From: Alloalcanivorax gelatiniphagus
GTDB taxonomy: Bacteria > Pseudomonadota > Gammaproteobacteria > Pseudomonadales > Alcanivoracaceae
DNA: 64,000 nucleotides
Assembly: GCF_005938655.1 (NCBI RefSeq)
Contig: NZ_VCQT01000019.1
Span: 62,001-126,000 of the forward strand
Direction: 5' to 3'
Made by a program: the position numbers and the translations under genes. The notes beneath the pieces were generated by a model that searched no databases, had not been told where the DNA came from, and was given only the letters and a program-made list of their open reading frames with translations. This document shows, one piece after another, positions 564 to 20,811 of this stretch; positions within the stretch are counted from its first letter, which is position 1, and each line of letters starts with the position of its first letter.

Positions 564-622
564 CGGCTTGGTCTCGGCGATTTCTCGTTGTTTTTTTGAA
601 CGATGGGCGGGAGTATGGCGCC

Positions 623-1711: not shown

Positions 1712-3081
1712 GTCACGCCAATCCGCAACAGACTGATCAGCGCCGCCGCCAAGGAGAAGCCGGCGGCCATCAGCAGCGCCGGGGTGATGGCGTCGTCCAT
1801 CAGGCCGAACATCAGCGCGGTGAGGGCCGCGCCCAGGGTCTGGCCAAGCAGCCGGGTGGTGCCCTGCATGCCGCCGGCGCCGCCACTGCGCTGGCGCGGC
1901 GCGGAGCCGATGATGGCGCGGTTGTTGGGGGCCTGGAAAAAGCCGAAGCCGAACCCGCACAGCGCCATGCAGCCGAGAATCACCCCCAGCGGTGCCTGAT
2001 TGGAGAGCACCGCCAGCAGCACCAGACCCACCACTTTCAGCAGCAGCCCCAGCGAACACAGGATGCCGATCGGGTAGCGGTCCGCCAGCCGCCCGGCGAT
2101 GGGCGCGGTGACCATGATCGCCGCCGGCCAGGGGGTCATCAGCAGGCCGGTCTGCACGGCGCTGTAGCCGAGCACGTCGTGCAGATAGAAGGGCAGGGCG
2201 ATAAAGGCGGCCATCTGGCTGGTGAAGGAGCAGAACGAGGTGCCGATGGCCAGGGCGAACGGGCGGATACGCAGCAGATCCACCGGCAGCATGGGCGACG
2301 GCTGGTTCAACTGGCGGCGCACCAGGGCGGTGCCCACCAGCAGGGCGGCGGCCAGGGCGGCCATCGCCGGCAGCGGCGACAGGCCATGGGCCAGGCCGTC
2401 CACGGCGCTGACCAGCAGGCCGATGGCCAGGGCGTTGAGCAGGGCGCTGGGCCAGTCGAAGCGGCGCGCATCGGTGGGGGTGCGCGGCAAATTGCGCGAG
2501 GCCAGGTACAGCGCCAGCAGGCCCAGCGGCACGTTGAAGGCGAACAGCCAGGGCCAGTCGGCCACCGACAGAATGCCGGCGGCCACCGTGGGCCCCAGGC
2601 CGGAGGACAGCGCCACCACCATGGCGGTGAGGCCGATGCCGCGCCCCAGGGAGCGGGCCGGGTAGATAAAGCGCACCAGGGCGGCGTTGACGCTCATTAC
2701 GCCGGCGGCGCCCAGGCCCTGGAAAAACCGGGCCACCGCCAGGGTCACCAGGGAATCCGCCAGGGTGCAGACCAGGGAAGCGACCACGAACAGGCCCAGG
2801 CCCAAACGGTAGATGCGGCGGTAGCCGACAATGTCGCCCAGGGACGATAACGGCAGCAGGGTGGTGGCCACCGCCAGCAGGTAGGCGTTGACCACCCACA
2901 CCACCTGGGAGCGGCTTACGTCCAGACTGTCGGCGATGGTGGGCAGGGCCACGTTGACGATGTTGCTGTCCATCACCGACATACCGATGCTGGTGGCGAT
3001 GGCGAGCATGGCCAGGCGGCGTTGCCGCGCCGGCAGACCGTCATGCTCGGGACGGTCCTCCAGGGAACTGCTTGCGGCCAA
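1699..3081 (-). CDS. MFS efflux transporter, DHA2 (14-TM) family
   Basis: A 460-residue integral membrane protein. It shows the DHA2 signature near the first helix (DSNIVNVALPTIADSL), MFS motif A in the loop after helix 2 (LGDIVGYRRIYRLG) and many hydrophobic segments consistent with about 14 helices. Proteins of this type export drugs or amphipathic compounds by proton antiport; the substrate is not predictable. The start is TTG at 3081 with a good ribosome site (GGGAGG) about 8 bases upstream; the next Met lies in the first helix and would be too late. It follows the IorB-like gene by 85 bases on the same strand, so it may be the last gene of that operon. The final codons fall in the 14-bp repeat. 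Confidence 0.88.
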   Translation of the reverse strand: MAASSSLEDRPEHDGLPARQRRLAMLAIATSIGMSVMDSNIVNVALPTIADSLDVSRSQVVWVVNAYLLAVATTLLPLSSLGDIVGYRRIYRLGLGLFVVASLVCTLADSLVTLAVARFFQGLGAAGVMSVNAALVRFIYPARSLGRGIGLTAMVVALSSGLGPTVAAGILSVADWPWLFAFNVPLGLLALYLASRNLPRTPTDARRFDWPSALLNALAIGLLVSAVDGLAHGLSPLPAMAALAAALLVGTALVRRQLNQPSPMLPVDLLRIRPFALAIGTSFCSFTSQMAAFIALPFYLHDVLGYSAVQTGLLMTPWPAAIMVTAPIAGRLADRYPIGILCSLGLLLKVVGLVLLAVLSNQAPLGVILGCMALCGFGFGFFQAPNNRAIIGSAPRQRSGGAGGMQGTTRLLGQTLGAALTALMFGLMDDAITPALLMAAGFSLAAALISLLRIGVTPKV

Positions 3082-3166
3082 GAAAGGGCCTCCCGGTCGG
3101 GTTCAGGGTCGGCCCGTCATCATACGCCTTTATCGGCGGCGGTGCTCCGGTCGGTGGCGGCGCCGG

Positions 3167-5500
3167 TTAACTCTTGGCGCCGCTTTGCAACGCCTCGCGG
3201 ACCGCCGCCGGGGTGATCGGCAGATGGCGCAGACGTACCCCCACCGCGCTCTCGATGGCGTTGGCGATGGCCGGCGCCACCACCGTGGTGCCGGGCTCGC
3301 CGAGCCCCACCGGAACCTCGGTGCTCTCCACCAGTTCGATCTCGATGTCCGGCGTGTCGATCATGCGCAGCGGGGTGTAGCTGTCCAGGTTGGTGTTGCG
3401 CACCCGGCCGTTCTTGAACTCGGTGCCTTCATAGAGCGCCATGGATACACCCCACAGGGCACTGCCTTCCACCTGGGCGCGGGCGCCGTTGGGGTCCACC
3501 ACGGTGCCGCAGTCCACCACCAGCCAGACTTTGTGCACCGACACCCGGCCGCTGTCCCGGTCCACGCTCAGGTGCACCGCGCCGCCCACCCAGGTGGGCA
3601 TGCTGCGCGACTGGCCGTAGGTGGTGGCGATGCCGATGGCGCTGTCCTTGGGCAGGTCGTCGCGGCCATAGCCGGACAGGGCCGCCACCCGTTTCAGCAC
3701 CGCCGCCTGACGGTGGGCGCCGCCCACGGAATTGGGCGCCTGGCCGGCGTTGCGACCCTCGGCCTTGAAGTGGTTGAGGCGGAAGCGCACCGGGTCCTCG
3801 CCGATATGGCGGGCGGCTTCGTCCATAAAGCTCTCCACCGCGAAATTGATCCAGCCCGGGGACACCGAGCGCAACCAGCCGGGGCGGAAGGTGTGTTCGG
3901 CCAGCTCGTTGGAGATGGCCCGGGCCCGTTGCGCGCCGACGCCGTACCAATGGTCGATGCCGTCCGAGGAGAACGGGTCGTAGGGCTCGCCGTTGGTGCC
4001 CTTGGGCATGAAGGAGGGGATCATCACCTTGGTGGGCCAGCCGGACGCCACCGCGCTGTCCATGCCCACCACTTTTTTGTCGCCGTCGAAGGCCATGCGC
4101 AGGCGGGACAGGGTGGGGGAGCGCACGCTGTCGAAGTGGCTGTCGTCGGCACGGGTCATGATCATCTTCACCGGCTTGCCGTCCAGCGCCTTGGAGGCCA
4201 GCGCGGCGGGAACCGCATAGTCGCCGTTGAGCCGCCGGCCGAAGCCGCCGCCCAGCAGGTAGGTGCGCATCACCACCTTGTCCTCGTCCACGCCCAGGGC
4301 TTTTTGCAGCCAGGGCAGGCACAGGGACTGCCACTGGTTGCCGGTGTGCACCTCCCAGACCCCGTCGTCGTTGCGGAATACCAGGGCGTTGGCCGGTTCC
4401 AGTTGGAAATGCAGCACCGTCTGGGTGCTGTAGTCCGCCTGGAAGGTGTCGGCGGCGTCCTTGAAGGTGGCATCCACATCGCCGGTGTCGCCGGTGTCCA
4501 TGATGGCGCCACTGCCGCTGTCGTCGATCAGACGCCGGTTCTCGGTCTGGATTTCCGCTTCACCCACTCCGGTGGCGTCGCCGGTGTTGTAGGACACCTT
4601 GATATGGCGAGAGGCCTTCAGCGCGGCCCAATGGTTATCGGCGATCACCATGGCCCAGCCCGGCGCGGTGCCGGACGGATCATCCAGCTTCAGGGTCTGC
4701 TGGTAGCCCTTGATATCCTTGGCGGCGCTGTCGTCGATGTTGGTGATGGTGCAGTCGTAGCGGGTCGGCGGCAGGATCGGCACGGCGTGCACCATGCCCT
4801 CCACCTTGGCGTCGATGCCGTAGATCGCCTGGCCGTTGGTCTTGGTGTCGATGTCCAGGGCCTTCAGGTCCTGGCCCAGCAGGGTGAGCTGGTCGTGGGG
4901 CTTGAGCGGCAGGTCCTTGAGTTCGTCCTCGCTGAATTGGCGGTCCAGCCCCTGTTTGACCAGTTCGCCGAAGCCCATGCTGCGGCCGCCGGCGCTGACC
5001 CGGCCGTCCGCCACGGTCACCGCGTCCGCCTTGATGCCCCACTGGGCGGCGGCTTTTTCCGCCAGGGCCAGGCGGCCGGCGGCGCCGGCGCGGCGGTAGA
5101 CCGGCCAGCTTTGCCAGACCGACCAGCTGCCGCCGGTGACCATGGTGCCCCACTTGGGATCGCTGTCCACGTGCTCGATGTGCACGTCCTCCCAGCGGGC
5201 GCCCAGCTCATCGGCCAGGATGCGGGCGATGGCGGTGCCCACGTGCTGGCCCATTTCGGCGCGGATCACATTCACATTGACCCGGCCTTCGGTATCGATC
5301 CAGTACCAGATGGTGGGTTCGAAACGTCGCCCGGCGGCCTCCAGGGGCTGGCCGTCGGCGGCTTCCGGATTCATCGCCGCCAGACCGGCGCGGGGAAAAC
5401 CGAACACCGCGCCGGCGGCGCACATGGACACCAGGAAGCTGCGCCGGGTAAGGCGCGGCGTCGCCGGAGCGTGGTCGGGTAAGCGGCGTGGATCAACCAT
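3167..5500 (-). CDS. Molybdopterin-binding subunit of a periplasmic aldehyde/isoquinoline-type oxidoreductase (IorB-like)
   Basis: A 777-residue large subunit of the xanthine dehydrogenase family in the IorB/aldehyde dehydrogenase branch. A Tat signal is clear (LTRRSFLV, residues 17-24). The Moco-binding motif GGGFGRR is near residue 415, and GLGEPGT near residue 730 carries the Glu that acts as catalytic base in this family. The enzyme hydroxylates N-heterocycles or oxidises aldehydes; the actual substrate is unknown. Its start overlaps the end of the 2Fe-2S subunit gene by 8 bases, and a triheme cytochrome c gene lies upstream, giving an electron path from Mo through Fe-S to cytochrome. The assignment to the IorB type rests on the Tat signal and the single fused large subunit. 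Confidence 0.9.
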
Positions 5501-5966
5501 GGGCGCTGCCCTCCTTCATGGCGGCGGCGGCATCACGGATGGCGCCACGGATGCGCGTGTAGGTCATGCAGCGGCACAGATTGCCGGTCATCACCGCGTC
5601 GATGTCTTCGTCGGTGGGGTTGGGCATGTCCTTGAGCAGCGCGGCGGCCTGCATGATCTGGCCGGACTGGCAGTAGCCGCACTGCGGCACCTGCAGTTCC
5701 CGCCAGGCCTGTTGCAGCGGGTGGCCGCCATCGGCGTCCAGGCCCTCGATGGTGGTGATCTCGGCGCCGGCCACATCCTTCAGCGGGGTGATGCAGCTGC
5801 GGGTGGCGTGCCCGCCCACATGGACGGTGCAGGCGCCGCACAGGCCGATGCCACAGCCGAATTTGGTGCCGGTGAGGCCGGCCAGATCGCGCAGGGCCCA
5901 CAGCAGCGGCATGTCCGGGTCCGCGTCCAGGCGGACCTTTTCTCCATTAATGGTGCACTCGATCAT
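5493..5966 (-). CDS. 2Fe-2S subunit of molybdenum hydroxylase (IorA-like)
   Basis: A 157-residue small subunit with two [2Fe-2S] clusters. The plant-type cluster uses Cys38, Cys43, Cys46 and Cys58 ([16 protein letters not shown] region). The second uses Cys96, Cys99, Cys131 and Cys133 (QCGYCQSGQ and NLCRCMTY). It passes electrons from the molybdenum cofactor in the partner subunit to an external acceptor. I start it at the ATG at 5966, which gives the family's typical [10 protein letters not shown]-like beginning; the longer frame to 6110 only runs into the cytochrome gene. It has no export signal of its own, so it probably leaves the cell bound to the Tat-targeted large subunit. Confidence 0.94.
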
Positions 5967-5979
5967 GGTGGTGTCCTCG

Positions 5980-7293
5980 TCAGTGCGTGCCGGCATGGGC
6001 GCGCAGGTCGCCCACCCGGGCGGGCAGATCCGGCCAGGACGGCAGGTCCGTTCGGCTGGCGCGCAAATAGGCGGCGATGGCGGCGATCTGCTGGTCGCTG
6101 AGCGCGTCACGGAAGGCCGGCATCACCACGCCCTGACTGCCTTCGTCCGACGGCACCCCGTCCAGGATCACATGGATCAGGTTGGCCGGATCATCCAGCC
6201 GCACGGCGGAGTTGATGCCCAGCTCCGGGCGCGTCGCTTTCAGATCGTCGGCGCTATCGTTGTAGTGGCAGGACGCGCAGGCGGTGGCGTACAGGCGCTC
6301 GCCATCGTCGAGACGGTAGGCCGGGTCCGGCTTGCCGGCGGCCACGCTGGCCTGCACCGGCGAATAGTCCGGCTGTGGCTCGGCGCCGCTGTCGCCGTCC
6401 CGGGCGATGCTGGCGAAATAGACGCCCAGGGCCTGCAGGTCCGGGTCCGACAGTTCGGCCACCCCGGCGTGCACCACCGGCCCCATGGGACCGGCGGCGA
6501 TACCGTGGTAAGCCTCGGCGCCGTGTTTCAGATACAGGGTCAGGTCGGCGGCGGTCCAGCGCACCGCCGAGGGATTGGCGCTGGTGAGCGCCGGGGCCAC
6601 CCAGCGGTCGATGGTGGCGCCGGCGTAGCGCCGGTCACCGTCCTCGGCGCCCAGGGCGTTGCGGGGCGTGTGACAGGCTCCGCAATGGCTGATGCCCTCG
6701 GCCAGATAGGCGCCCCGGTTCCAGGCATCGCTCTGGTCCGGGTCCGGTTGATAGCGGCCGAAGTCCACGAACAGCAGCTTCCAGCCGGCCTGCAGGAAAC
6801 GCAGATTCAGCGGGAACGGCAGGGTGTTTTCGCGGGTGCTTTGTTTTACCGGTTCCACTTCGCTCATCAGGTAGGCGTAGAGGGCGTCCACGTCCTGGTC
6901 GGAGAGCAGGGTGAAATGGTTATAGGGCAAGGCCGGGAAGAGATGCCGCCCCTGGCGGTCCACGCCCTCGTGCATGGCACGCCGGAACGCCTCCGGCGAC
7001 CAGCTGCCGATGCCGGTTTCCGGGTCCGGGGTAATGTTGGAGCCATAGATGGTGCCGAAGTCGCTGACCACCGGGTAGTTGCCGGCATAGGGTTCGCCAC
7101 CGGCGGCGGTGTGACAGGTGCTGCAGTAGCCCGCCCCCGCCAGCACCCGGCCCCGCTCGATGGTGTCGGCGTCGAAGGCCGGGCGGTCCGCCGCCGCCAT
7201 GGCCGGCAACTCCGGGTGCCAGGCGTAAAACGCGAATGCGCCCGCCACCACAACGCCCACTACCACCAGGGCGAGGAAAATACGTTTGATCAT
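5980..7293 (-). CDS. Triheme membrane-anchored cytochrome c, electron acceptor for the Mo hydroxylase
   Basis: A 437-residue protein with an N-terminal hydrophobic anchor or signal (residues 4-23) and three CXXCH heme sites: CSTCH at 57-61, CGACH near 203 and CASCH near 337. This is the layout of cytochrome c subunits that accompany membrane alcohol, gluconate and IorAB-type dehydrogenases. The ATG at 7293 has an AAGGGG ribosome site; the upstream in-frame Met at 7353 is rejected because it would put a non-signal sequence ahead of the anchor. It is the first gene of the cytochrome-IorA-IorB operon, 13 bases ahead of the Fe-S subunit, and probably passes electrons to the respiratory chain. Confidence 0.92.
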
Positions 7294-7509
7294 GGTGTGC
7301 CCCTTGCAGACCGATCCGGCCACCAACATACACCCGCAGCCGGTGTGGGCCAATATTCCCGGACACTTCCCAGGGTTTTGTTTTGTGAACCGGTGCCGGA
7401 ACGGGCGCCCCCGGAACCGGTCCCAATATTCAAGCTTTTACCCTCGCCCGGGACGGCATCGGTTATCGTTTCCGTACCCTCGGCCCTTGGCACAAGGACC
7501 CACATTTCG

Positions 7510-9189
7510 ATGAAACGCAGAACCCTGTTGAAGAGCGCCCTGGCCATGGCGGCCTGGTACGGCCTGCCGTCCGCGCCGCTGTTCGCCGCCGCCCGCGCCA
7601 ACGCCTCAACCGCCGAGGCCTCAACCGCCGACAACCCCCTGGCCGACGGCCAGGCACAGCCATTCAGTTTCGACGGCCTGCGGCGGCGGGCCCGGGAACA
7701 GGCCGCCAGGCCCTACCGGGATGGCGCCCGGCGGTTGCCGGACACCCTGGCGGCGCTGACGCCGCACCAGTACAACGAGATCGGGTTCGACCCGGGGCGG
7801 GCCCTGTGGCGCGGGCAAAGCGACCAGCTCAACGTGCAGTTCATCCATGCCGGCATGGCCTTCGACCAGCCGGTGCGGATGTACTCGGTGGACCCGGACA
7901 GCGGCCAGGCCCGGGAGATTCATTTCCGTCCGGAGCTGTTCGACTACCACCGCGCCGACGTGGACGTGGCGCAGCTGGGCAGCGACCTGGGCTTCGCCGG
8001 CTTCCGCGTGTTCAAGGCGCCGTCCCTGGACGAAAAGGACATCATCTCGTTTCTCGGTGCCAGCTATTTCCGCGCGGTGGACGGCTCCTACCAATACGGC
8101 CTGTCCGCCCGGGGCGCCACCGTCAACACCTTCGCCGAGGGCGAGCAGGAGGAGTTTCCGGACTTCACCCATTTCTGGTTCGAGACGCCGGCCCGGAACG
8201 CCACCCGGTTCACCGCCTATGCGCTGCTGGACTCGCCGAAACTGGCCGGTGCCTATCGCTTCGTGATTGATTGCGGCGACGACGGGGTGGTGATGGACAT
8301 CGACAGCCACCTGTTCCCCCGCGAGGCCGTCAGCCAGCTGGGCATCGCGCCGATGACCAGCATGTTCAGCTGCGGTGGCCACCAGCGGCGGCAGTGCCGC
8401 ACCCTGCATCCCCGGGTGCACGACTCCGACCGGCTGGCCCTGTGGCGGGGCAATGGCGAATGGGTGTGCCGGCCGCTCAACAACCCGCCACGCATTCAGT
8501 TCAATGCCTTCGGTGACCACGACCCGAAGGGCTTTGGCCTGCTGCAGACCCACCGGGACTTCGACGATTACGAGGATGTGATCGGCCGTTACCACGACCG
8601 CCCCAGCCTGTGGGTGGAGCCCAAGGGACAATGGGGCGACGGTGAAATCCAGCTGCTGGAATTGCCCACCACCGGCGAGACCATGGATAACGTGGTGGCG
8701 TTCTGGAAGCCGCGACAGGCGATCCAGGGCGGCGAGGCGCTGAGCTTTGGCTATCGGCTGCACTGGGCCGCCCGGGCGCCGGTGCACACCGAGCTGGCGC
8801 GGGTGCGCGCCACCCTCAGCGGCATGGGCGGCTTTCCGGAAGGCTGGGCCCCCGGCGAGCACTATCCGGAGGTGTGGGCGGAACGCATCGCGGTGGACTT
8901 CGTGGGCGGCGAGCTGAAGGCGTTGTACGACGCCGATATCGATGTGGACACCCAGTTGGATACCTCCGCCGGCCAGGTGAAGGACCTGCATGTACTGTGG
9001 GTGAAGGACCTGGACGGTTTCCGCATTCTGTTCGACTGGTACCCGGACAGCGACGCCACGGACCCGGTGAACATGCGGCTCACCCTCAGTGCCCGGGGCA
9101 AGGTGATCAGCGAGACCTGGCTGTTCCAGTATTTTCCGCCGCCGAAGGAAGAACGCCGGTTCCCGCCGTTCCCCGGTAGCCAGGCGTGA
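7510..9189 (+). CDS. opgD: Glucan biosynthesis protein OpgD/MdoD-like, Tat-exported
   Basis: A 559-residue periplasmic protein of the OpgG/OpgD family, which modifies the backbone of osmoregulated periplasmic glucans. The N-terminus has a twin-arginine motif (KRRTLLK, residues 2-8) followed by a short hydrophobic stretch. This is typical of OpgD rather than the Sec-exported OpgG. Family hallmarks seen include YNEIGFDPGRALW, FFMHF-like beta-sandwich segments (AGFRVF, FLGASYFRA) and HFWFETP. No opgH glucosyltransferase is adjacent, so the gene is unlinked from the synthase. It is divergent from the cytochrome gene across 216 bp. A much longer frame that begins far upstream, inside the opposite-strand genes, is not credible. 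Confidence 0.9.
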   Translation: MKRRTLLKSALAMAAWYGLPSAPLFAAARANASTAEASTADNPLADGQAQPFSFDGLRRRAREQAARPYRDGARRLPDTLAALTPHQYNEIGFDPGRALWRGQSDQLNVQFIHAGMAFDQPVRMYSVDPDSGQAREIHFRPELFDYHRADVDVAQLGSDLGFAGFRVFKAPSLDEKDIISFLGASYFRAVDGSYQYGLSARGATVNTFAEGEQEEFPDFTHFWFETPARNATRFTAYALLDSPKLAGAYRFVIDCGDDGVVMDIDSHLFPREAVSQLGIAPMTSMFSCGGHQRRQCRTLHPRVHDSDRLALWRGNGEWVCRPLNNPPRIQFNAFGDHDPKGFGLLQTHRDFDDYEDVIGRYHDRPSLWVEPKGQWGDGEIQLLELPTTGETMDNVVAFWKPRQAIQGGEALSFGYRLHWAARAPVHTELARVRATLSGMGGFPEGWAPGEHYPEVWAERIAVDFVGGELKALYDADIDVDTQLDTSAGQVKDLHVLWVKDLDGFRILFDWYPDSDATDPVNMRLTLSARGKVISETWLFQYFPPPKEERRFPPFPGSQA

Positions 9190-9213
9190 GGGGGCCCCGT
9201 CACGCCCGGATGA

Positions 9214-10347
9214 TCATGCTCCGGTGTAGCCGAAACGCCGCGCCACCGGCGCGGTGATCTCCTCGATCAGGGCACGCTCGCGCTCATCGAACCGGGGCTG
9301 GTAATAGGTGGGGGCGTGCAGCCCGCTGGCCAGGCGCTGGCGTTCCGGGTCCGATAGCGGCAGTTCGGCGTGCCGGAACACGCCGGCCAGGGTGTGATCG
9401 GCGTCGCCGCAAAGATCCTCGTAGCGCACCACCAGGGCGGCCTGGCCCAGGGCCCGGTCGGCGTCCAGGGTGTCCGCCACCTGCCGGTAGACCGCCGTCC
9501 AGTAACGGGCCCAGCCTTCCACTTCCTGGCCGCTTTGCCACAGGGCGGTGATCCGCGCGGTTTCCCCATCGTTGCCCATGTTGATGGCGCGCCGGTCGAG
9601 GCCGAATTCGTAATGGCCCACCCGCCGCATATGTTCCAGGGCACGGGGTTCGGCGGTTTCGCCGGCCACGAACAGGGCTTGCTGTTTCATCAGCGAAGCG
9701 ATGTGCCAGACCGGGTCGCGGATCATCACCAGGAAGCGGGCGTCCGGATAGAGACGGTGCAGATAGCCGAGCCGGGCCAGGTTGTAATTGCCCTTGGCCA
9801 GATAGCGGCGGCGCTCCCGGATCGCCAGCAGCTTGCGGATGTGTTGATCGTAGAACGCCTCGAAGTCCGGGTGACGGTCGTCGCGGCCCAGCACCGAGCT
9901 GTGGTCGGGATCGTGGGCGTTCGGGAAGAACGCCATCCACAGCATTTCCTCGAACGCCTCCGGACTTTTCGAGGTCACCTGAATGCCATCCTTATGGGCC
10001 CGCTCGCGGGCCTCCTCGTGGGCGCCGGGCACCAGTGACAGCCAGCGATTCCACCAATAGGGAATCGGCAGGAAGGGAAAGTCCGCGTAACGGTGGGAGG
10101 CCACCTCCGGGTGGCCGGCCAGATGTTCCAGCACGATGGTGGTGCCGGAGCGCGCCAGGCCCGCCACGTACAGGGGCCGGTCCACGGTCAGGTCTTCGAT
10201 GGCGTCGGCCACCGCCCGGGTCTCCAGATTGCCCAGCTTGATCCAGGCGCGGGGGTGACGGTGCACCCAGCCGCCGGCCAGATGCATCCAGGTGGCCACC
10301 TGAAAATCCGGGTCCTCGGTGCGGTCCGTGCGTGCGGATGTGTTCAT
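9214..10347 (-). CDS. PAPS-dependent sulfotransferase family protein
   Basis: A 377-residue soluble protein. The 5'-phosphosulfate-binding loop GLARSGTT is at 63-70 and the 3'-phosphate-binding region (FLVMIRDPVWHIASL) is near 205-220, as in PAPS sulfotransferases of the Sulfotransfer_1/3 families. It should transfer sulfate from PAPS to an unknown acceptor in the cytoplasm. The ATG at 10347 overlaps the stop of the preceding gene (ATGA), so translation is coupled; the in-frame upstream Met codons lie inside that gene. It is the last gene of a four-gene operon with an arylsulfate sulfotransferase-like protein and two membrane proteins. The family is clear but the substrate is not. Confidence 0.85.
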   Translation of the reverse strand: MNTSARTDRTEDPDFQVATWMHLAGGWVHRHPRAWIKLGNLETRAVADAIEDLTVDRPLYVAGLARSGTTIVLEHLAGHPEVASHRYADFPFLPIPYWWNRWLSLVPGAHEEARERAHKDGIQVTSKSPEAFEEMLWMAFFPNAHDPDHSSVLGRDDRHPDFEAFYDQHIRKLLAIRERRRYLAKGNYNLARLGYLHRLYPDARFLVMIRDPVWHIASLMKQQALFVAGETAEPRALEHMRRVGHYEFGLDRRAINMGNDGETARITALWQSGQEVEGWARYWTAVYRQVADTLDADRALGQAALVVRYEDLCGDADHTLAGVFRHAELPLSDPERQRLASGLHAPTYYQPRFDERERALIEEITAPVARRFGYTGA

Positions 10348-11060
10348 TGGATTTTCGCCCATCGGTAGGTGAGCAGGGAAACGATCAACATGATCGGGAA
10401 GAACACCGCCAGCCAATGGCGCAGCCAGCCCGGGCCGAACGGCAGGTACTCCGGTTGGGGCAGGGCCAGGGTCACCCGCTGCACGCCGCTGTCCTCCGGC
10501 AGATAGCCCAGCGGGTTACTCACCAGCCAGTTCCACCAGTGGCGCTGTTCCACCACCGGAATCGGCGCGGTGACCGGCACTTCCGCCACCTGGCGCTGGC
10601 CCTGGCGGACCTGGATCACCGGCGTGTCCCCGCCGACCGACCAGTGCGCCTGGTAGTCCGCCGGCGCCGCCTCCAGGGCCGGCGGCTGGCCCGCCGGCGG
10701 CAGCCGGTGCGCGTAGTGGCCTTCGATCCAGGTGAGCAGGGCCAGCAGCGGCAGGATCGAGATCAGCGTGGGGATCACCACCAGGCCCAGATGCCGGAAG
10801 GCGGTGACGAACTGGTCGCGGATCAGGGGGCCGGCATCGCTGAATTCGCCGTCGAACCCGTTCAGCGCCCGGCGGGCCTCCCGGGCGGCGCGCTTGGCAT
10901 CGCCGATGCGCCTCTGCGGTGACAGCCACTTGTACAGAAACAGAGTGCCGACACCGGCCACGGCCGCCCACACCGCCAGCCGTGCCACCGCCGGCAGCAG
11001 TGTGGCCAGGCCGGTGTCGACCAGGGCGAACAGCGGGGCGGGCAGATCGAACAGCGCCAT
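10344..11060 (-). CDS. Unrecognised three-helix membrane protein, shape resembles Oxa1/EMC3-type proteins
   Basis: I do not recognise this 238-residue protein with certainty. Hydrophobic segments lie near residues 24-45, 88-110 and 214-233. Between the first two is a basic, probably cytoplasmic amphipathic stretch that starts with KWLSPQRRIGDAK. Between the last two is a polar domain of about 100 residues, probably periplasmic. A first helix, a charged helical hairpin and then a longer second helix recall the YidC/Oxa1/EMC3 (DUF106) fold, but this is only a shape argument. The gene is 4 bases behind the small AYVGPGAG protein gene and overlaps the sulfotransferase start, so it is part of the sulfo-transfer operon. 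Confidence 0.6.
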   Translation of the reverse strand: MALFDLPAPLFALVDTGLATLLPAVARLAVWAAVAGVGTLFLYKWLSPQRRIGDAKRAAREARRALNGFDGEFSDAGPLIRDQFVTAFRHLGLVVIPTLISILPLLALLTWIEGHYAHRLPPAGQPPALEAAPADYQAHWSVGGDTPVIQVRQGQRQVAEVPVTAPIPVVEQRHWWNWLVSNPLGYLPEDSGVQRVTLALPQPEYLPFGPGWLRHWLAVFFPIMLIVSLLTYRWAKIQ

Positions 11061-11064
11061 GGGG

Positions 11065-11379
11065 CTAGACGCGCCGGTCGTCGTCGCCGGGGCGCGGCGA
11101 TTCGTCGGTGTGACCCGCCGGGGTCTCGTCCACCGGTGGCTCCGCCACCTTGGCGGCGGACTCGTCGGCGGCGGCCTTGCGGCGCCGGCGCATGCGTCGG
11201 ATCGGCCACATGATCACGAACAGCAACGCCACGCCGATGGCGGCGACGATGCCCCACAGGGCGGTGAGCAGGCTGAGCCCGGCGCCGGGGCCCACGTAGG
11301 CACAGGCCAGGCCTGGCAGCAGCAGGGCGGGCAGGGCCAGGGCGGCGGCCCGGGTTGCCCGGGAAGTATGAATACTCAT
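11065..11379 (-). CDS. Small signal-bearing membrane protein with AYVGPGAG motif
   Basis: A 104-residue protein. It has a cleavable-looking signal (ALALPALLLPGLACA) and then, at the mature N-terminus, AYVGPGAGLSLLTALWG leading into a single membrane helix. An arginine cluster (RRMRRRRK) places the acidic, Pro-rich C-terminus in the cytoplasm. Small proteins with this Y-[IV]-G-P-G-A-G plus helix layout are known as uncharacterised proteins near phosphatase- and sulfatase-type enzymes; I know of no proven function. It lies 9 bases downstream of the arylsulfotransferase-like gene and 4 bases upstream of the three-helix protein gene. It is a possible membrane adaptor for its neighbours. Confidence 0.7.
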   Translation of the reverse strand: MSIHTSRATRAAALALPALLLPGLACAYVGPGAGLSLLTALWGIVAAIGVALLFVIMWPIRRMRRRRKAAADESAAKVAEPPVDETPAGHTDESPRPGDDDRRV

Positions 11380-11388
11380 GGTGGTCTC

Positions 11389-12765
11389 CTAACGTTGCTC
11401 TGAAGAGGGTTGTTTCCGAGACGGTGCTTGCGGTTCTGCTTGCACTTTCAGTTGCGAGCGGAATGCCGGGTCCAGGTCCTCCGGGGCCACCCGTTGGGCG
11501 GCGGACACCACCGGGATGTACTGGTCCCGGTCGCCGGCGCGCACCGGATTGACGAACTCCCAGACGATCTCGCCGTCGGCCACTTCCAGCAGGCGGCCGC
11601 CGTCGGATTCGGTGATCAGCCAGTTGCCGTTGGGCAGTTCTTCCACGGCGCCGCGCAGGCCGCTGTCGAAGGGATGCGCGGCGTCGCCGGTATAGCGCGC
11701 CACGATGCGCTGATCCTCCGGGTCCACTTCGAGCACGCGGGTGCGGTTGCCGGGCTCGAAGTTGCCCAGGTTGTCGAACAGGGTGAAATGGCCGGCCCGG
11801 TTGATGCGCGGATAGTGCTGCCCCAGCCAGGGGCCCTTGACGGCCCAGTTCATGGTGCCGCTGTGCGGGTCCACCAGGGCCACCGCGCCGGGATGGCGGA
11901 ACGACAGCAGCACCTGGCCGGCATGGCCCTTGGCCGGCGCGAAACGCTGGCTCATGGCCGGCGTCAGGTACTGCACGCTGTTGGTGTGCAGCGGGTCGGC
12001 GGTGGCGAAGCTGGGCACCGCGTAGAACAGATCCGCGTAGGGCGACTCGACGAACGAGCGGGCCAGTGACACCTTGCTGAGTTCCTTGCCGGTGTCGCCG
12101 TCGAGCACCACCAGGAAGTCGTCCAGCCAGGGGTACTCCAGCCGGGCAAAGTCCGGCAGCGGCCGGTCGGTGAATTCATGGGTCAGGGTCACCACGTTGC
12201 CGTCCGGGGTAATGTCCAGGTCGTGGTGAGTGCTGGCGTGGTAGCGCCAGATCACCTTGGAGTTGGCGTCCAGCTTCACTAGGCCATAGCCCCAGGGGGT
12301 GTCGTTGTTGGCGATGTACATCGCCAGCAGGTCGCCGTTGGGCAGCAGTCGCGCCTTGCGCCAATAGATGCGGTCGTCCGGGCGCGGCGGGCGGCCCACC
12401 GGGCTTTGTTGCCACACCTGGCTGTAGGGCAATGCCCAGCGGTGCACTTCCCGGCCGTCCATATCAATCAGGCTGGCATGGCTGCCGTCGCCGGAGGTGT
12501 ACAGGGTCAGGCCCGCCTGGGCCCGCCGCCGGTCGTGCACGGTAACGCCCCGATCGTCCCGGCGGGCGTCCCGCCACAGATCGGACTGCGTGTACAGATC
12601 GCTGAGCGAGTGTTGCTGCAGCAGCGCACCGGCGGCCTTGTGGGCATCGTTGAAAAGCGGGTAGGGGAAGGTCCGGGTCAGCACCACGAAGGCGCCGGCC
12701 ACGAACGCGATAAAAACAATCGCGAGGAAAAAAACCGTGAAGCCGATTCGATCCGAATTTTTCAT
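11389..12765 (-). CDS. Arylsulfate sulfotransferase-like (ASST family) beta-propeller protein, membrane-anchored
   Basis: A 458-residue protein with one N-terminal membrane helix (about 8-30) and a long extracytoplasmic part built of propeller-like repeats (LLPNGDLLAMY, ITPDGNVVTL, ELPNGNWLITE). Three His motifs match the ASST pattern: STHHD near 178, LHTNS near 258 and GQH near 315 followed by LFDN near 327. In E. coli AssT a His in a comparable QH...FDN setting is transiently sulfated; the correspondence here is my inference. ASST enzymes move sulfate between phenols without PAPS. It is the first gene of the four-gene operon. Unlike classic AssT it is anchored by a helix rather than secreted, and no DsbA/DsbB-type partner is nearby. 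Confidence 0.78.
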   Translation of the reverse strand: MKNSDRIGFTVFFLAIVFIAFVAGAFVVLTRTFPYPLFNDAHKAAGALLQQHSLSDLYTQSDLWRDARRDDRGVTVHDRRRAQAGLTLYTSGDGSHASLIDMDGREVHRWALPYSQVWQQSPVGRPPRPDDRIYWRKARLLPNGDLLAMYIANNDTPWGYGLVKLDANSKVIWRYHASTHHDLDITPDGNVVTLTHEFTDRPLPDFARLEYPWLDDFLVVLDGDTGKELSKVSLARSFVESPYADLFYAVPSFATADPLHTNSVQYLTPAMSQRFAPAKGHAGQVLLSFRHPGAVALVDPHSGTMNWAVKGPWLGQHYPRINRAGHFTLFDNLGNFEPGNRTRVLEVDPEDQRIVARYTGDAAHPFDSGLRGAVEELPNGNWLITESDGGRLLEVADGEIVWEFVNPVRAGDRDQYIPVVSAAQRVAPEDLDPAFRSQLKVQAEPQAPSRKQPSSEQR

Positions 12766-12872
12766 GCCGTCATCCTGAAAGCACTGGCAAGGTCGCCTGC
12801 TTAATAAACACCCGGCATGGCAGATGGTTTGTCAGTCTTTGTAAAAGCTGGGGAATAGGGCGGGGTTTTGTG

Positions 12873-12897
12873 AACCGGGCCTCATTGAGGCCCGGTT
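12873..12897. terminator. Perfect hairpin after ectD, without a T-tract
   Basis: A 12-bp perfect stem, AACCGGGCCTCA and TGAGGCCCGGTT, lies just past the ectD stop codon on the minus strand and upstream of the arylsulfotransferase-like gene. No run of T follows on either strand, so it may be an attenuating or mRNA-stabilising hairpin rather than a true intrinsic terminator. Confidence 0.5.
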
Positions 12898-12903
12898 GGT
12901 GGC

Positions 12904-13824
12904 TTAGAGTGGCTCCAGATTGTCGTACATGGACAGCGCCGCGGTATCGTCACGGTTGGCCAGAAAGCCGGGCCGCGCATCGGTGCCGCCGTAGGGTTTC
13001 TCCAGGCCGTTGTCCACGCTGTTATAGACAAAGAACAGATTGGCCCTTGGCCAGGGCGACAGGTTTTTGTTGGACGCGTGCAGGGTATTGCACTCGAACA
13101 ACAGCAGTGAACCCGGCGGGCCCTTGGGCGCCTGAATGCCGCCCTGGTTGACCATGGTGCGCAGGTTTTCCTGGCTGGGCACGCCGACCCGCTGGCTCTT
13201 CAGGGAGTCCTTCCAATTGTCTTCCGGCGTCTTGCCGTGGCAGGGCACGAAGTAGTGGTGCGAGCCGGGAATCAGCATCAGCGGCCCGTTGAACTCGTTG
13301 TTGTCGGTGAGCATGATCGAAGCGCTCACCGCGCGCATGCGCGGCATGCCGTCCTCGGAGTGCCAGGTTTCAAAGTCCGAGTGCCACTGAAAACCGCTGC
13401 CCTGGAAACCGAACTTATCGTTGATGCGGGACTGGTGAATGTAGACATCACCGCCGAGCAACTGCCGGACCATGCCGAGAATGCGCGGGTCCCGGGTCAG
13501 GGCGTCGAAGCGCTTGGAGATACGATGCATGTCGAACACGGAACGAAGGTCGCCGGAGTCCGGGTCGGTGATCACCTGGTCGGATTTCACCAGCTCGGTG
13601 TCCTTGGCCATTTCGTTGAGTTCATCGAAAAACGGACGCATCCGTTCCTGGGAAAAGAAGCCTTCGAACCACAGAAAACCATCGCGCTCGTAACGGGACA
13701 GGGATTCCTCGCCCAGGGGGCCGTTCCAACGGTCCTGGTTGCGGGCGTGAATCACCGGGTCCAGCCGGGGGAAGGGTTTGCGGTCCTGCTCCATGCGAGT
13801 GGGAAAGAGATCTTCGCTGCTCAT
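12904..13824 (-). CDS. ectD: Ectoine hydroxylase EctD
   Basis: A 306-residue Fe(II)/2-oxoglutarate dioxygenase that converts ectoine to 5-hydroxyectoine in the cytoplasm. The EctD signature is very well kept: FQWHSDFETWHSEDGMPRMR (about 143-162, with the HxD iron ligands), then NGPLMLIPGSHHYF, and the second iron His in CNTLHASN near 250. I start it at the ATG at 13824, where AGAGGAG lies upstream and the protein begins like other EctD proteins; the frame to 13914 adds unlikely residues. No ectABC genes adjoin it. The cell must therefore make ectoine from another locus or import it. Confidence 0.95.
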   Translation of the reverse strand: MSSEDLFPTRMEQDRKPFPRLDPVIHARNQDRWNGPLGEESLSRYERDGFLWFEGFFSQERMRPFFDELNEMAKDTELVKSDQVITDPDSGDLRSVFDMHRISKRFDALTRDPRILGMVRQLLGGDVYIHQSRINDKFGFQGSGFQWHSDFETWHSEDGMPRMRAVSASIMLTDNNEFNGPLMLIPGSHHYFVPCHGKTPEDNWKDSLKSQRVGVPSQENLRTMVNQGGIQAPKGPPGSLLLFECNTLHASNKNLSPWPRANLFFVYNSVDNGLEKPYGGTDARPGFLANRDDTAALSMYDNLEPL

Positions 13825-14187
13825 AAGCTGCTCCTCTCCGCGAGATTCCATTTTCGAGTTGAGGGACTGCCACGGCGTGATCGGCGAGGACCGCCAGGTC
13901 GCGGCGGGCATCACGGGGGATTGTGCATACCGGGGCGTGGCGGGTCAGCCTTGTTCAATAGTTCTTTACAGGGGGAGGTAAAAGGTGGGTTAAAAGTTGA
14001 AAGTTGAAAGTTGAAAGGGGAGCAGACCGGGAAGCAACGACTCGTACTTAAGCGCGGGCACGACCTTCCCAAGCGTCAGCCTGTTTCCGCGTTTCAATTA
14101 TGGCCGAGCTTATCTTGCCTGTCGGGCGTTGAAGATGGTCTGCTATAAGAAAGGCATTCCTCCCCAGACCATCGAAAGGAACTGACG
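13825..14187. other. Intergenic region between ectD and pgm
   Basis: This 363-bp divergent region holds no convincing gene. It should contain the ectD and pgm promoters. TATAAG at 14144-14149 is a possible pgm -10, but no good -35 lies at the right distance. A heptanucleotide repeat lies at 13989-14016. Confidence 0.5.
13989..14016. repeat. Heptanucleotide repeat, GTTRAAA type, four units
   Basis: One GTTAAAA unit is followed by three GTTGAAA units in direct tandem. The same heptads recur at 27738-27772, inverted at 27857-27884, and as two units at 51384-51396, so this is a dispersed family in the genome. Confidence 0.9.
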
Positions 14188-15852
<1,665 letters not shown>

Positions 15853-15865
15853 CAGCAGCAGCCTT

Positions 15866-15923
15866 CCGCTTCAGTCGCGATTGAACTGGCACCACCGGCA
15901 ATCGCGACTGAAGTCGCTCCTAC
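15866..15923. repeat. REP pair (BIME), ATCGCGACTGAAG variant
   Basis: An inverted half copy (CTTCAGTCGCGATT, ending at 15882) and a direct copy (ATCGCGACTGAAGTCGCTCC and TAC, 15901-15923) flank a short spacer just after pgm. The inverted copy continues into the alternative arm (GAAGCGGAAGGC when read on the other strand), a variant that recurs at 20726. Confidence 0.85.
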
Positions 15924-15951
15924 GGAGAGCCCGGCGTAACGTTATCGCCAG

Positions 15952-15990
15952 CCACAAAAAAGCCCGGCACAAGGCCGGGCTTTTTTGTGG
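15952..15990. terminator. Bidirectional intrinsic terminator between pgm and acnB
   Basis: A perfect 17-bp stem (15952-15968 with 15974-15990) has the loop ACAAG, a GCCCGGC core and six A on one side and six T on the other. It therefore works for the convergent pgm and acnB transcripts. Confidence 0.96.
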
Positions 15991-16006
15991 TCGGAGGGAG
16001 AGTCCC

Positions 16007-18601
16007 TTAGCTGGCTTGCGCCACCGGGATCTTCACCTTGTCCGCCACTTCCTGGTACTCATCCATGCGGTCGAAGTTCATGTAGCGATAGATCTCGCCG
16101 GCCATGGAGTCGATGGTTTCGGCGTACTGCATGTACTCCTCGGTGGTCGGCAGTTTGCCGAGCACCGCCGCCACCGCCGCCAGTTCCGCGCTGGCCAGGT
16201 ACACATCGGCGCCCTGGCCCAGACGGTTGGGGAAGTTCCGGGTGGAGGTGGACACCGCGGTGGACTTGGGCGCGATCCGTGCCTGGTTACCCATGCACAG
16301 GGAGCAGCCCGGCATCTCGGTGCGCGCGCCGGCGCGGCCGTAGATGTTGTAGTAGCCCTCTTCGGTGAGCTGGTGCTGGTCCATCTTGGTGGGCGGGGCG
16401 ATCCACAGGCGCGTGGTCAGGCCGTCCACTTTTTCCAGCAGCTTGCCGGCGGCGCGGAAGTGACCGATGTTGGTCATGCAGGAACCGATGAACACTTCGT
16501 CGATCTTGGCGCCGGCCACGTCGGACAGGGTCTTGGCATCGTCCGGGTCGTTCGGGCAGCACAGTACCGGCTCCTTGATCTGATCCATGTCGATCTCGAT
16601 CACGGTGTGGTACTCCGCGTCGGCGTCGGCACGCATCAGGCTGGGGTTGGCCAGCCACTCTTCCATGCCCTGGATACGACGCTCCAGGGTACGGGCGTCG
16701 CCGTAACCGTTGGCGATCATCCACTTGAGCAGGGTGATGTTGGACTTCAGGTACTCCGCCACGCTGTCCTCGGACAGGGTGATGGTGCAGCCGGCGGCGG
16801 AACGCTCGGCGGAGGCGTCGGACAGCTCGAACGCCTGCTCGGCGGTCAGATCTTCCAGGCCTTCGATTTCCAGGATGCGACCGGAGAACACGTTCTTCTT
16901 GCCGGCCTTGGCCACGGTCAGATGGCCTTCCTTGATCGCCTGCAGCGGAATCGCGTGGACCAGATCACGCAGGGTGATGCCGGGCTGGCGTTTGCCCTTG
17001 AAGCGCACCAGCACGGATTCCGGCATGTCCAGCGGCATTACGCCGGTGGCGGCGGCGAAGGCCACCAGACCGGAGCCCGCCGGGAAGGAAATGCCCATCG
17101 GGAAACGGGTGTGGGAGTCACCGCCGGTGCCCACGGTGTCGGGCAGCAGCATGCGGTTCAGCCAGGAGTGGATGATGCCGTCACCCGGGCGCAGGGACAC
17201 GCCGCCCCGGTTCATGATGAAGTCCGGCAGGGTGTGCTGGGTTTCCACGTCCACCGGCTTCGGATAAGCGGCGGTGTGGCAGAAGGACTGCATCACCAGG
17301 TCGGCCTGGAAGCCCAGGCAGGCCAGGTCTTTCAGCTCGTCCCGGGTCATCGGGCCGGTGGTGTCCTGGGAGCCCACGGTGGTCATCTTCGGCTCGCAGT
17401 ACATGCCCGGACGCACGCCTTCCATGCCACAGGCTTTACCGACCATTTTCTGGGCCAGGGTGAAGCCGGCGTTGGAGTCGCCCGGTTGTTCCGGCTTGCG
17501 GAACAGGGTGGATTCTTCCAGACCCAGGGCAGCGCGGGCCTTGGTGGTCAGGCCACGGCCGATGATCAGGTTGATGCGGCCGCCGGCGCGCACTTCGTCC
17601 AGCAGTACCTGGGAGCGCAGCTCGAATTCGGCGATCACTTCACCGTCTTTTTCCACCCGGCCTTCGAACGGGTAGATGTCGATCACGTCACCGGTGTTCA
17701 TCTTCTCCACGTCGCACTCGAACGGCAGGGCGCCGGAGTCTTCCATGGTGTTGAAGAAGATCGGCGCGATCTTGCCGCCGATGCAGACGCCGCCGGCGCG
17801 CTTGTTGGGCACGTAGGGGATGTCGTCGCCAAAGTGCCAGAGCACCGAGTTGGTGGCGGACTTACGGCTGGAGCCGGTGCCGACCACGTCGCCCACGTAG
17901 GCCACCGGGTGGCCCTTGGCTTTCAGCTCGTCCATCTGCTTGAGCGGGCCGATTTCGCCGTCTTTCTCCGGGAAGATGCCTTCGCGGGCATTCTTCAGCA
18001 TGGCGTTGCCGTGCAGCGGGATGTCCGGGCGGCTCCAGGCGTCCTGGGCCGGGGACAGGTCGTCGGTGTTGGTTTCGCCGGACACCTTGAACACGGTGAC
18101 GGTGAACTTCTCGGACAGGTCCTTGCGGTTGGTGAACCATTCGCCCTCGGCCCAGGATTCGATCACTTCCTTGGCCTTGGCGTTGCCGGCTTTCATTTTG
18201 TCTTCCACGTCGTGGAAGGCATCGAATACCAGCAGGGTGTGTTTCAGTTCCTTGGCGGCCACGGCGGCCAGTTCTTCGTCGTCGAGCAGCTCGATCAGCG
18301 GGGCCACGTTGTAGCCGCCCTGCATGGTGCCCAGCAGTTCGGTGGCGCGCTTGCGGTCGATCAGGGGGGAGCTGGCTTCGCCTTTGACGATGGCGGACAG
18401 GAAGGCGGCCTTGACGTAGGCGGCCTGGTCAACGCCCGGCGGAACGCGATTGACGAACAGGTCCTGGATGAACTCCTCTTCACCGGCGGGCGGGTTCTTC
18501 AACAGCTCCACCAGGGCGGCGGTTTGCTGTTCGTCCAGCGGTTTCGGGGGCACGCCCTCGGCGGCGCGTTCCTCGACATGTTTGCGATAGGCTTCTAGCA
18601 C
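16007..18601 (-). CDS. acnB: Aconitate hydratase B (bifunctional with 2-methylisocitrate dehydratase)
   Basis: An 864-residue TCA-cycle aconitase B that interconverts citrate and isocitrate with a [4Fe-4S] cluster. It has the AcnB order of domains: an N-terminal HEAT-like domain ([13 protein letters not shown]), then the swivel domain, then the catalytic domains. The cluster ligands are in GSCMTNIGH (near 707) and [10 protein letters not shown] (near 765). The length matches E. coli AcnB. The start is GTG at 18601 with GAGGG upstream. It ends at a strong terminator shared with pgm. An array of REP elements lies upstream of its promoter, between it and the acyltransferase gene. Confidence 0.98.
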
Positions 18602-18683
18602 AGCGAATCCCTCGTTTCGTCTGACCGATTTCTTTTGGAAATCAGTTGGTTGGGGTGAGACTGGGGGTTGGAATTGCGCGCGG

Positions 18684-18713
18684 AGTATAGCCGAAACCCC
18701 ATCAACTGTTAAA
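18684..18713 (-). promoter_or_regulatory. Candidate sigma-70 promoter of acnB
   Basis: On the minus strand, TTTAAC (18713-18708) and TATACT (18689-18684) are 18 bases apart. The -10 box is good and the -35 box is weak. The predicted leader is about 75 nt and contains a short GATTTC/GAAATC hairpin before the GTG start. Confidence 0.45.
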
Positions 18714-18782
18714 CGGAACCGGGCTCCTGGCCATTCATGGCGTGAATACTCGCAATCACTGGCCTTTGTGGGTGGGCGGCGG

Positions 18783-19077
18783 ATCGCGGCTGAAGCCGCT
18801 CCTACAGGGGCGGCGGGGTGAGGGGGTCGCGGCTGAAGCCGCTCCTACGGGGGGGGCACGGGGTGGCGTGTGCGGATTGGGCGGGGTGATCGCGGCTGAA
18901 GCCGCTCCTACAGGGGTGCGGTACGGGGTGGTGTGGTGCGGATTGGGTGGGGGGATCGCGGCTGAAGCCGCTCCTACGGGGGTGAGGTACGGGGTGGGGT
19001 GGTGCGGCGTGATCGCGGTTGAAGGCGCTCCTGCGGTGATGCGGGGGCTTGGGTGTAGGAGCGGCTTCAGCCGCGAT
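18783..19077. repeat. Amplified REP array: five direct copies and one inverted copy
   Basis: Copies of ATCGCGGCTGAAGCCGCTCC followed by TAC occur at 18783, 18825 (first base changed), 18889, 18955 and 19012 (degenerate), and an inverted copy lies at 19054-19077. The spacers between them share the words GGTACGGGGTG and GTGCGGATTGGG. Most of the array is thus a tandem repeat of a unit of about 57-66 bp made of REP plus spacer. It fills the 484-bp gap upstream of acnB; no gene is seen there, and the small frame across it only encodes the repeat. Confidence 0.95.
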
Positions 19078-19085
19078 CCAGCGTA

Positions 19086-19988
19086 TCAATAGGGCAGGGT
19101 GCCGCCGGGCGGTTGCCGGCGGAAGCGCTTATAGCTCCACAGATACTGGGCGGGCTCCTCGCGGATCAGGGCTTCGATGGAGCGGTTCATGGTGGTCAGC
19201 GCGTAATCCAGGTCGTCATCGTGCACGCCCGGGTCCGCCGGCCGCACCCGGATCTCGAAGCCCTGCCGGCCGGGCAGGCGCCTGGCCCAGGCCAGGAATA
19301 CCCGGGCGTTGGTCTGTTTGATCAGCTTGCAGCTCAGGGTGCCGGTAAAGGCCGGCTGCCCGAAGAACGGCGCGAACCGGCCGCTGCGCCGGTCCGCCAC
19401 CTGGTCCGGCAGGATCGCGGTGAGCGCCCCCTGGCGCATGGCCCGCACCAGGCCGGCCACGCCCCGGGCGGTGGCCGGGTACATGGTGGTGCCGAAATGC
19501 TCGCGGCCTTCCTTGATCAGCTGGTCCACCTCCGGCAGGCCAGAGGGGGCGAACATGGCGTGCAGGCCGAACTCCCGGGCCAGCCAGAAGTTGAGCACCT
19601 CCCAGCAACCCAGGTGCGGCGCCAGGATCAGCACCGGTTCCCGGTTGGCCACCGCCTGGCGCAGGGGGCCGTCGCCGTCCTCGGACACCACCCGTGCCAG
19701 GCCGTCCCCCGGGTGGCGCCAGAAGCGGGCGATCTCGAAGGTGTTCTTGATGCTTTCCACCAGGGAGGCCCGGGCCAGGGCTTCCCGCTGCGGCTGTTCC
19801 GGCAGGCACAGCCGCAGGTTGATGCGGGTGACGCGCCGCGCCTCGGTGGGCAGCACGGCCAGCAGCCGGCCCAGGCCGGTGGCCAGGGCCCGGTTCAGGG
19901 CAAAAGGCAGCAGACCCAGCAAGCGCAGCGCGCCGGCGGCGGCGCGGCCCTTGAAGGTCTGGATGGCGGGGTGAGTTCGTCGTCCCAT
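19086..19988 (-). CDS. Lysophospholipid/lipid A acyltransferase family protein (LpxL/HtrB-like)
   Basis: A 300-residue protein of the LPLAT superfamily in the lipid A acyltransferase branch. The catalytic HX4-5E-type motif is APHLGCWE (about 121-128). The PDQVADRRSGRFAPFFGQPA segment matches the family's second conserved block, and an N-terminal hydrophobic region would hold it to the inner membrane. It probably adds a secondary acyl chain to lipid A or acylates an ornithine- or lyso-type lipid. The usual NRxD-type residues are less clear, so a non-lipid A substrate is possible. Divergent from miaE by about 110 bp. The stop lies 8 bases from the last REP copy. Confidence 0.82.
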   Translation of the reverse strand: MGRRTHPAIQTFKGRAAAGALRLLGLLPFALNRALATGLGRLLAVLPTEARRVTRINLRLCLPEQPQREALARASLVESIKNTFEIARFWRHPGDGLARVVSEDGDGPLRQAVANREPVLILAPHLGCWEVLNFWLAREFGLHAMFAPSGLPEVDQLIKEGREHFGTTMYPATARGVAGLVRAMRQGALTAILPDQVADRRSGRFAPFFGQPAFTGTLSCKLIKQTNARVFLAWARRLPGRQGFEIRVRPADPGVHDDDLDYALTTMNRSIEALIREEPAQYLWSYKRFRRQPPGGTLPY

Positions 19989-20099
19989 GGGGCGCGATTA
20001 TATCGTTGCGGCCCCCGAACACCAGGGGCAGCGCCCGCTGTCCGGGCTGGTTTTGCGCCGGCGGGCTTGTAGAATGGCGCCGTCCTGCTTGAGGTGGCC

Positions 20100-20708: not shown

Positions 20709-20725
20709 GGGGGCCGTTGGGGTTT

Positions 20726-20803
20726 ATCGCGACTGAAGCGGAATGCCGCCCAGTCGCTCCTACATTGTTCTTCCACCTATGTAGGAGCGACTTCAGTCGC
20801 GAT
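20726..20803. repeat. REP pair (BIME) with a 15-base arm variant
   Basis: The first copy begins ATCGCGACTGAAG and ends TCGCTCCTACA, but 15 bases (CGGAATGCCGCCCAG) sit between the arms. A normal inverted copy lies at 20780-20803. The pair separates the convergent miaE and lpxH genes. Confidence 0.9.
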
Positions 20804-20811
20804 AAAACCGC

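Follow-up and report, generated by a model that had tools for sequence, protein, structure and literature searches.

Two-step sulfate transfer has a described precedent in caprazamycin synthesis by Streptomyces. According to PMC4257720, Cpz8 uses PAPS (3'-phosphoadenosine 5'-phosphosulfate) to sulfate a triketide pyrone, and Cpz4, a PAPS-independent arylsulfate sulfotransferase (ASST), then transfers this sulfate onto the antibiotic. A review (PMC13426309) states that Cpz4 prefers sugar hydroxyls and describes the ASST of Escherichia coli CFT073 as encoded in an operon with DsbL/DsbI. Here we analyze an operon in a 64,000-nucleotide stretch of Alloalcanivorax gelatiniphagus (contig NZ_VCQT01000019.1; the whole stretch is termed the window). 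As in caprazamycin synthesis, a predicted PAPS-dependent enzyme (STF) and a predicted PAPS-independent ASST-like enzyme are encoded together. Unlike that system, the module comprises four genes, including those for a three-transmembrane (TM) protein, TM3, and a small YVGPGAG protein, AYV; its anchored enzyme is predicted to face outward, and it is spread among Gram-negative bacteria. The genome size is 4.2 Mb, and the operon's nearest named relatives are from Alloalcanivorax.

The best explanation for this module is a two-step sulfation relay across the inner membrane with an envelope glycan as acceptor, to which we assign a probability of roughly 0.48. We infer its carrier, carrier passage (including through TM3), acceptor, transfer direction, membrane sides and the role of the small protein as follows. 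At the inner face, STF would transfer sulfate from PAPS to a membrane-soluble carrier, for which a phenol, a hydroquinone or a lipid are candidates. TM3 would dock STF and, together with the YVGPGAG protein, would allow the carrier, once sulfated, to cross to the outer face. There, the anchored ASST-like enzyme would take up the sulfate on its His317 and donate it to hydroxyls of sugars in an envelope glycan, osmoregulated periplasmic glucan (OPG) being the likeliest where an MdoG-family gene adjoins the module. Support at the level of sequence comes from the conserved module, the predicted family and fold of ASST and STF, the catalytic residues, a putative STF frame with a three-TM front, and MdoG linkage. 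Both enzyme types and the membrane parts would fit a relay across the membrane. Precedent also supports it, since the residues and fold of the ASST-like protein match Cpz4, whose donor is loaded by the PAPS-dependent Cpz8.

The sequence-only reading had proposed loading inside and transfer outside by a system with no described counterpart. The pathway stands as the best reading, with the module conserved and the catalytic histidine kept; the claim of a unique make-up holds in part only, given the Cpz8/Cpz4 precedent for pairing PAPS-dependent and ASST enzymes. The two-step chemistry is already known, whereas the conserved membrane module did not appear in the literature searched. Likewise absent from that literature, which left subscription papers mostly outside its coverage, were the gene pairing, the TMCO1-like part, the two types of outer enzyme and the glucan link.

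Gene order and conservation of the module

The minus strand carries all four genes at the places first read from the sequence, and the spacing of 9 and 4 bases followed by a 4-base overlap proved exact. The ASST-like gene (12765..11389, 458 amino acids) encodes a membrane-anchored six-bladed propeller, predicted to be a PAPS-independent sulfotransferase. It is followed by AYV (11379..11065, 104 amino acids), an AYVGPGAG small membrane protein with a signal-like N terminus, the YVGPGAG motif, one TM segment and a basic tail. TM3, the TMCO1/DUF106-like protein (11060..10344, 238 amino acids), and STF, the predicted cytoplasmic PAPS-dependent sulfotransferase (10347..9214, 377 amino acids counted from ATG), complete the operon. 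The mechanical open reading frame (ORF) for STF opens at a TTG at 10416, ahead of this ATG.

A scan of one genome per species returned 46 loci with an ASST-like relative, and all four families were present in the same order at 13 of these. The 13 loci belong to Alloalcanivorax, Salinisphaera, Phyllobacterium and Thalassospira, to metagenome-assembled genomes (MAGs) of Alcanivorax, Salinisphaerales and Alphaproteobacteria, and to one Pirellulales MAG. Conservation of all four genes in this order extends to other genera, a further class and one additional phylum. Another copy, flanked by transporter genes, is carried by plasmid pD4M1B of Paroceanicella profunda, the sole plasmid record matched by TM3.

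Evenly drawn surveys of 185 class, 398 phylum and 390 order genomes gave 5, 7 and 9 TM3 carriers, respectively (17 distinct genomes). STF lay close to TM3 in 17/17 of these and ASST in 14/17. In G629, STF is on the opposite strand with AYV and another gene intervening; in G085, ASST is oriented opposite. The order ASST-AYV-TM3-STF on one strand was found at 25 of 31 loci compared, all 31 selected for module matches and two pairs among the 25 (L131/L015 and L132/L016) each being one contig counted twice, judged by length and place. Travel of the four genes together in other genomes, set beforehand as a test, was borne out by this order and by the surveyed TM3 carriers. A chance cluster was excluded, the module being kept across genera and into another phylum. 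Mirror-tree correlations over 20 loci were 0.91-0.94 among ASST, TM3 and STF and 0.40-0.49 for pairs with AYV; they carry little weight because they are expected from co-travelling genes but equally from shared descent.

The predicted enzymes and their membrane partners

Against Pfam, the ASST-like protein matched PF14269 with 101.4 bits (cut-off 27) and PF05935 with 32.4 bits (cut-off 24.2), and STF matched PF13469 with 70.8 bits (cut-off 27; E 2.6e-19). The initial ASST-like and PAPS-type assignments are therefore both backed by curated models above cut-off. AYV and TM3, which had been called uncharacterized, match no Pfam family above cut-off.

His317 of the ASST-like protein (codon 11815..11817, minus strand; residue numbers were hand-counted from the alignment) is unchanged in 24/24 alignment rows and aligned with TQH at 434-436 of 3elq. 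His260 and Asn262 are also invariant across the 24 rows, and His181 and Arg290 are present in 90% or more. His317, Arg290 and His181 line up with 3elq in a weak match (E 0.073), and His260/Asn262 with DYVHINS of Cpz4. In PMC13426309, the key ASST residues are the catalytic His436 and the ligands His252, His356, Asn358 and Arg374; equivalents of all are present in the ASST-like protein. Thr501 falls opposite Arg or another residue, hand-read where the alignment is weak. The structure model is a propeller with the ASST fold, near solved ASSTs, and its closest solved structure is Cpz4. E. coli ASST has an N-terminal beta-sandwich domain, whereas alignment of the model starts at its residue 70, opposite residue 117 of the chain. 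Retention of the catalytic histidine had been set as a test of the first assignment; the protein keeps a histidine aligned with E. coli ASST His436 and shows the ASST fold in the model. A degenerate ASST without the catalytic histidine was ruled out by the invariant His317, the structural alignment and the fold match. The ASST-like protein is thus a predicted sulfuryl transferase of the ASST family. Separately, the ASST-like match at L003 (G171) was reported with one TAG; an open frame of 446 codons suggests that this is the gene's own stop.

STF Arg66, Gly68, Thr70, Arg210 and Ser218 are invariant across 16 rows, the latter Arg and Ser lying eight apart. We take the R-x-G-x-T loop and the R/S pair to be PAPS-binding motifs. 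The STF profile matches tyrosylprotein sulfotransferases (best E 4.5e-12), and hydrophobicity indicated zero TM segments; the enzyme is predicted to be PAPS-dependent and cytoplasmic. APS (adenosine 5'-phosphosulfate) kinase, which is required for PAPS, was matched in 25/26 module genomes.

TM3 has three TM segments, a helical segment between the first and second, and an outer beta domain of ~95 residues between the second and third. Helices in the model span residues 24-46, 49-67, 77-117 and 216-235, and a basic loop (43-90) and hydrophobic segments were seen; the N terminus is predicted to lie outside and the C terminus inside. This fits the Oxa1-superfamily layout of a three-TM core with a helical segment between TM1 and TM2, as found in DUF106 (MJ0480), TMCO1, EMC3 and Get1. 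TM3 differs from archaeal DUF106, TMCO1, EMC3 and Get1 in being bacterial and in its outer beta domain and sulfotransferase linkage. A profile search of PDB sequences gave MJ0480 as the single match (E 0.0092, and 9.6e-5 after adding rows), and the best fold match of the model was chain 8 of the multipass translocon 7tut, which we take to be TMCO1 from its length, its name being absent from the match output. With hhalign, the match to archaeal DUF106 was weak (P 0.008-0.035, against 0.13-0.2 for a reversed control; score 23.1 against a best of 20.9 among 20 block shuffles) and was outscored by the AYV profile (P 2.6e-4); the first DUF106 alignment used contained 6 wrong rows. Pfam PF01956 (EMC3_TMCO1) matched 0/14 TM3 proteins, so TM3 is not filed as a member. 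Overall, TM3 resembles the Oxa1 superfamily (DUF106/TMCO1/EMC3), which includes insertases.

In AYV, Tyr28, Gly30, Pro31, Gly32, Gly34 and Pro59 are invariant over 17 rows, and two hydrophobic segments are present. No paper on the YVGPGAG motif was found in the literature search. AYV was matched in 11/185 class-sample genomes, 7 of which have the module or its short form. The remaining matches are a relative in G140 (E 6.2e-8) and three weak ones. The G140 gene adjoins a YidC-family gene (PF02096, E 7.2e-39) near a sulfatase-family gene (PF00884). AYV with TM3 in the module, and an AYV-like protein beside a YidC-family protein in G140, give two settings in which the small protein accompanies an Oxa1-type protein and an enzyme family acting on sulfate or phosphate esters. 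As a side observation, the G140 locus (L127, G140:C9:86000-96500; 3410-9150, minus strand) encodes an AYLDPGSG small protein, a YidC-family protein with a periplasmic domain, and methyltransferase-like and sulfatase-family proteins. It adjoins a putative GDP-mannose dehydratase, recognized by eye, and is possibly a parallel envelope-modification locus.

Variants of the module bear on how its parts cooperate. In G160, ASST and AYV are followed at TM3's place by a single 509-codon open frame in which a three-TM segment runs into STF; such a joined frame would put STF at the inner face. G072 has a 131-amino-acid three-TM protein at the TM3 position, unmatched by the TM3 profile and named by place and hydrophobicity. 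The Pirellulales TM3 is matched by the profile yet is without the outer beta domain. In G629 (L119/L146) and G856 (L136), a PF01663 phosphodiesterase-family gene (~650 amino acids) lies between AYV and TM3. No ASST was found in this alkaline-phosphatase (AP)-type module; AYV, TM3 and STF are kept, and both genomes are without MdoG. That a phosphodiesterase-family gene replaces ASST while the other parts stay the same suggests that the outer step is interchangeable. An 897-codon TM3 frame in G629 was set aside as mostly high-GC open frame, the PF01663 gene overlying it in another frame.

This same replacement in two genomes could be taken to mean that the ASST-like protein is a sulfatase or a sulfate-ester sensor, and that the module removes or senses sulfate. 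We consider this very unlikely, as the transferase catalytic residues are kept, Cpz4 and E. coli ASST are the nearest fold matches, and a PAPS-type enzyme is close by in every surveyed TM3 genome. It is also conceivable, if unlikely, that STF and ASST act in parallel rather than in series, STF sulfating its own product inside and ASST using environmental aryl sulfates outside, with TM3 and AYV serving only to insert ASST into the membrane or hold it there. The resemblance of TM3 to a superfamily of insertases and the adjacency of AYV-like and YidC-family genes in G140 favor such an arrangement, as does the suggestion in PMC13426309 that E. coli ASST encounters substrates in urine. The three-TM segment joined to STF in G160 argues against it, as does the retention of TM3 alongside STF in genomes with ASST missing or replaced.

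Linkage to periplasmic glucan genes

A gene of the MdoG/OpgG-OpgD periplasmic glucan family (7498..9189, plus strand; PF04349, E 2.6e-172) is convergent with the operon and is a candidate pathway partner. MdoG lies near the module at 9/31 loci, representing four lineages (Alloalcanivorax, G540, G121 and G160). The last two also have a family-2 glycosyltransferase, judged OpgH-like by eye, between MdoG and the module. Four linked lineages compare with 0.095 expected (Poisson 3e-6), an expectation calculated over 21 lineages, treated as independent, using copy number, genome size and a reach of 5 kb. The linked copies occupy three places in the MdoG tree. In the class sample, MdoG was present in 4/5 TM3 genomes against 28/185 overall (P 0.0019; 0.010 when the own genome is omitted). 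Within the own genus, three carriers have three MdoG genes each and four non-carriers have none (Fisher 0.029), although one event may explain this. Among the clusters listed in the neighbor comparison, only the MdoG and OpgH-like families offered a plausible link as a recurring fifth gene, no family scan of every flank having been made. Other clusters comprised the module itself, antisense shadows, ABC-type proteins and genes common to two groups.

Modification of glucans outside the cytoplasm, as proposed for the module, is known from OpgB, OpgE and OpgC. OpgB and OpgE are members of the alkaline-phosphatase superfamily, a point of comparison with the AP-type module. The substituents concerned are phosphoglycerol, phosphoethanolamine and succinyl groups, whereas the module would add sulfate; sulfate on periplasmic glucan was not encountered in the literature searched, subscription papers being mostly outside its coverage.

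Several findings weigh against the relay or parts of it. At 33 of the 46 loci with ASST relatives no module was seen in the stretch examined, some stretches being short; L021, 46% identical, is among them. Of the 10/185 class-sample genomes with ASST relatives, 7 have the module in full or short form and 3 show no module within the 3-4 kb examined. G654 (L135, G654:C296:1-8000) has TM3 and STF with no ASST or AYV match within 8 kb. In the G160 frame, the three-TM front goes unmatched by the TM3 profile and is assigned to TM3 by place and hydrophobicity only. APS kinase is missing from G062 and matched in G639 at E 2.1e-4 only, an argument against PAPS use in these genomes. A gene for making the carrier was not found; type III polyketide synthases, not the subject of a family search, were not recognized by eye among the window ORFs inspected. 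The window and G540 MdoG copies are sisters, making three linkage events the safe count, and G735 and G978 carry one MdoG each without TM3 (8 tested of 11 TM3-less family relatives). MdoG was not found in 8 of 30 distinct module genomes (G629, G085, G072, G638, G643, G856, G699 and G654), where G699 is 89% and G654 81% complete, G802/G633 count as one genome, their places being identical, and the plasmid record is excluded.

These eight genomes indicate that glucan cannot be the sole acceptor; it is likely the acceptor in some lineages, not all. They also favor a version in which the same relay sulfates a different target, be it a lipid, exopolysaccharide or secreted small molecule, and MdoG neighbors reflect hitch-hiking or a common envelope-stress setting. 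The copies on the plasmid and in Pirellulales, with no MdoG or OpgH-like gene in the flanking DNA examined, point the same way. We nevertheless regard this version as somewhat unlikely in view of linkage in four lineages and at three MdoG-tree places against 0.095 expected, and of co-occurrence within the same genus. The relay to an envelope glycan remains our preferred reading.

Neighboring genes and implications

The sequence-only reading had also pointed to a Tat-exported sulfatase nearby. A predicted sulfatase with a twin-arginine signal and a CSPSR motif is indeed encoded at ~3-565 (minus strand), truncated by the window edge; it lies ~8.6 kb from the operon with other genes intervening, and outside the window positions 2001 to 22000 on which the neighbor comparison drew. 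The MdoG-family gene downstream is the better-supported neighbor. Directly upstream of the operon (12904-13914, minus strand) is an ectoine-hydroxylase-like dioxygenase, so named by eye, which fits osmotic adaptation; no recurring cluster was seen for it in the neighbor comparison. Further genes on the minus strand encode an oxidoreductase with a twin-arginine signal, isoquinoline-oxidoreductase-like by eye (3167-5500), and a cytochrome c-like protein in which CxxCH motifs occur (5980-7353).

A bolder and fairly unlikely extension of the relay is that a bacterial TMCO1/DUF106-type protein acts as its membrane gate and not as a protein insertase, docking STF and passing the sulfated carrier on to an interchangeable ASST- or alkaline-phosphatase-type outer transferase to make sulfated periplasmic glucans. 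If this were true, ASST would gain a dedicated inner source of donor. The 2026 review (PMC13426309) states that most ASSTs are without identified natural acceptors and that their roles are poorly understood. With an ASST and a PAPS-type enzyme of its own in one conserved operon, a source of donor is built in and the question of ASST acceptors can be approached genetically. Should TM3 be an Oxa1-superfamily protein serving a small-molecule enzyme, the known range of the insertase superfamily would widen. If periplasmic glucans are sulfated, a strong acid group would be added to a component tied to osmotic adaptation.

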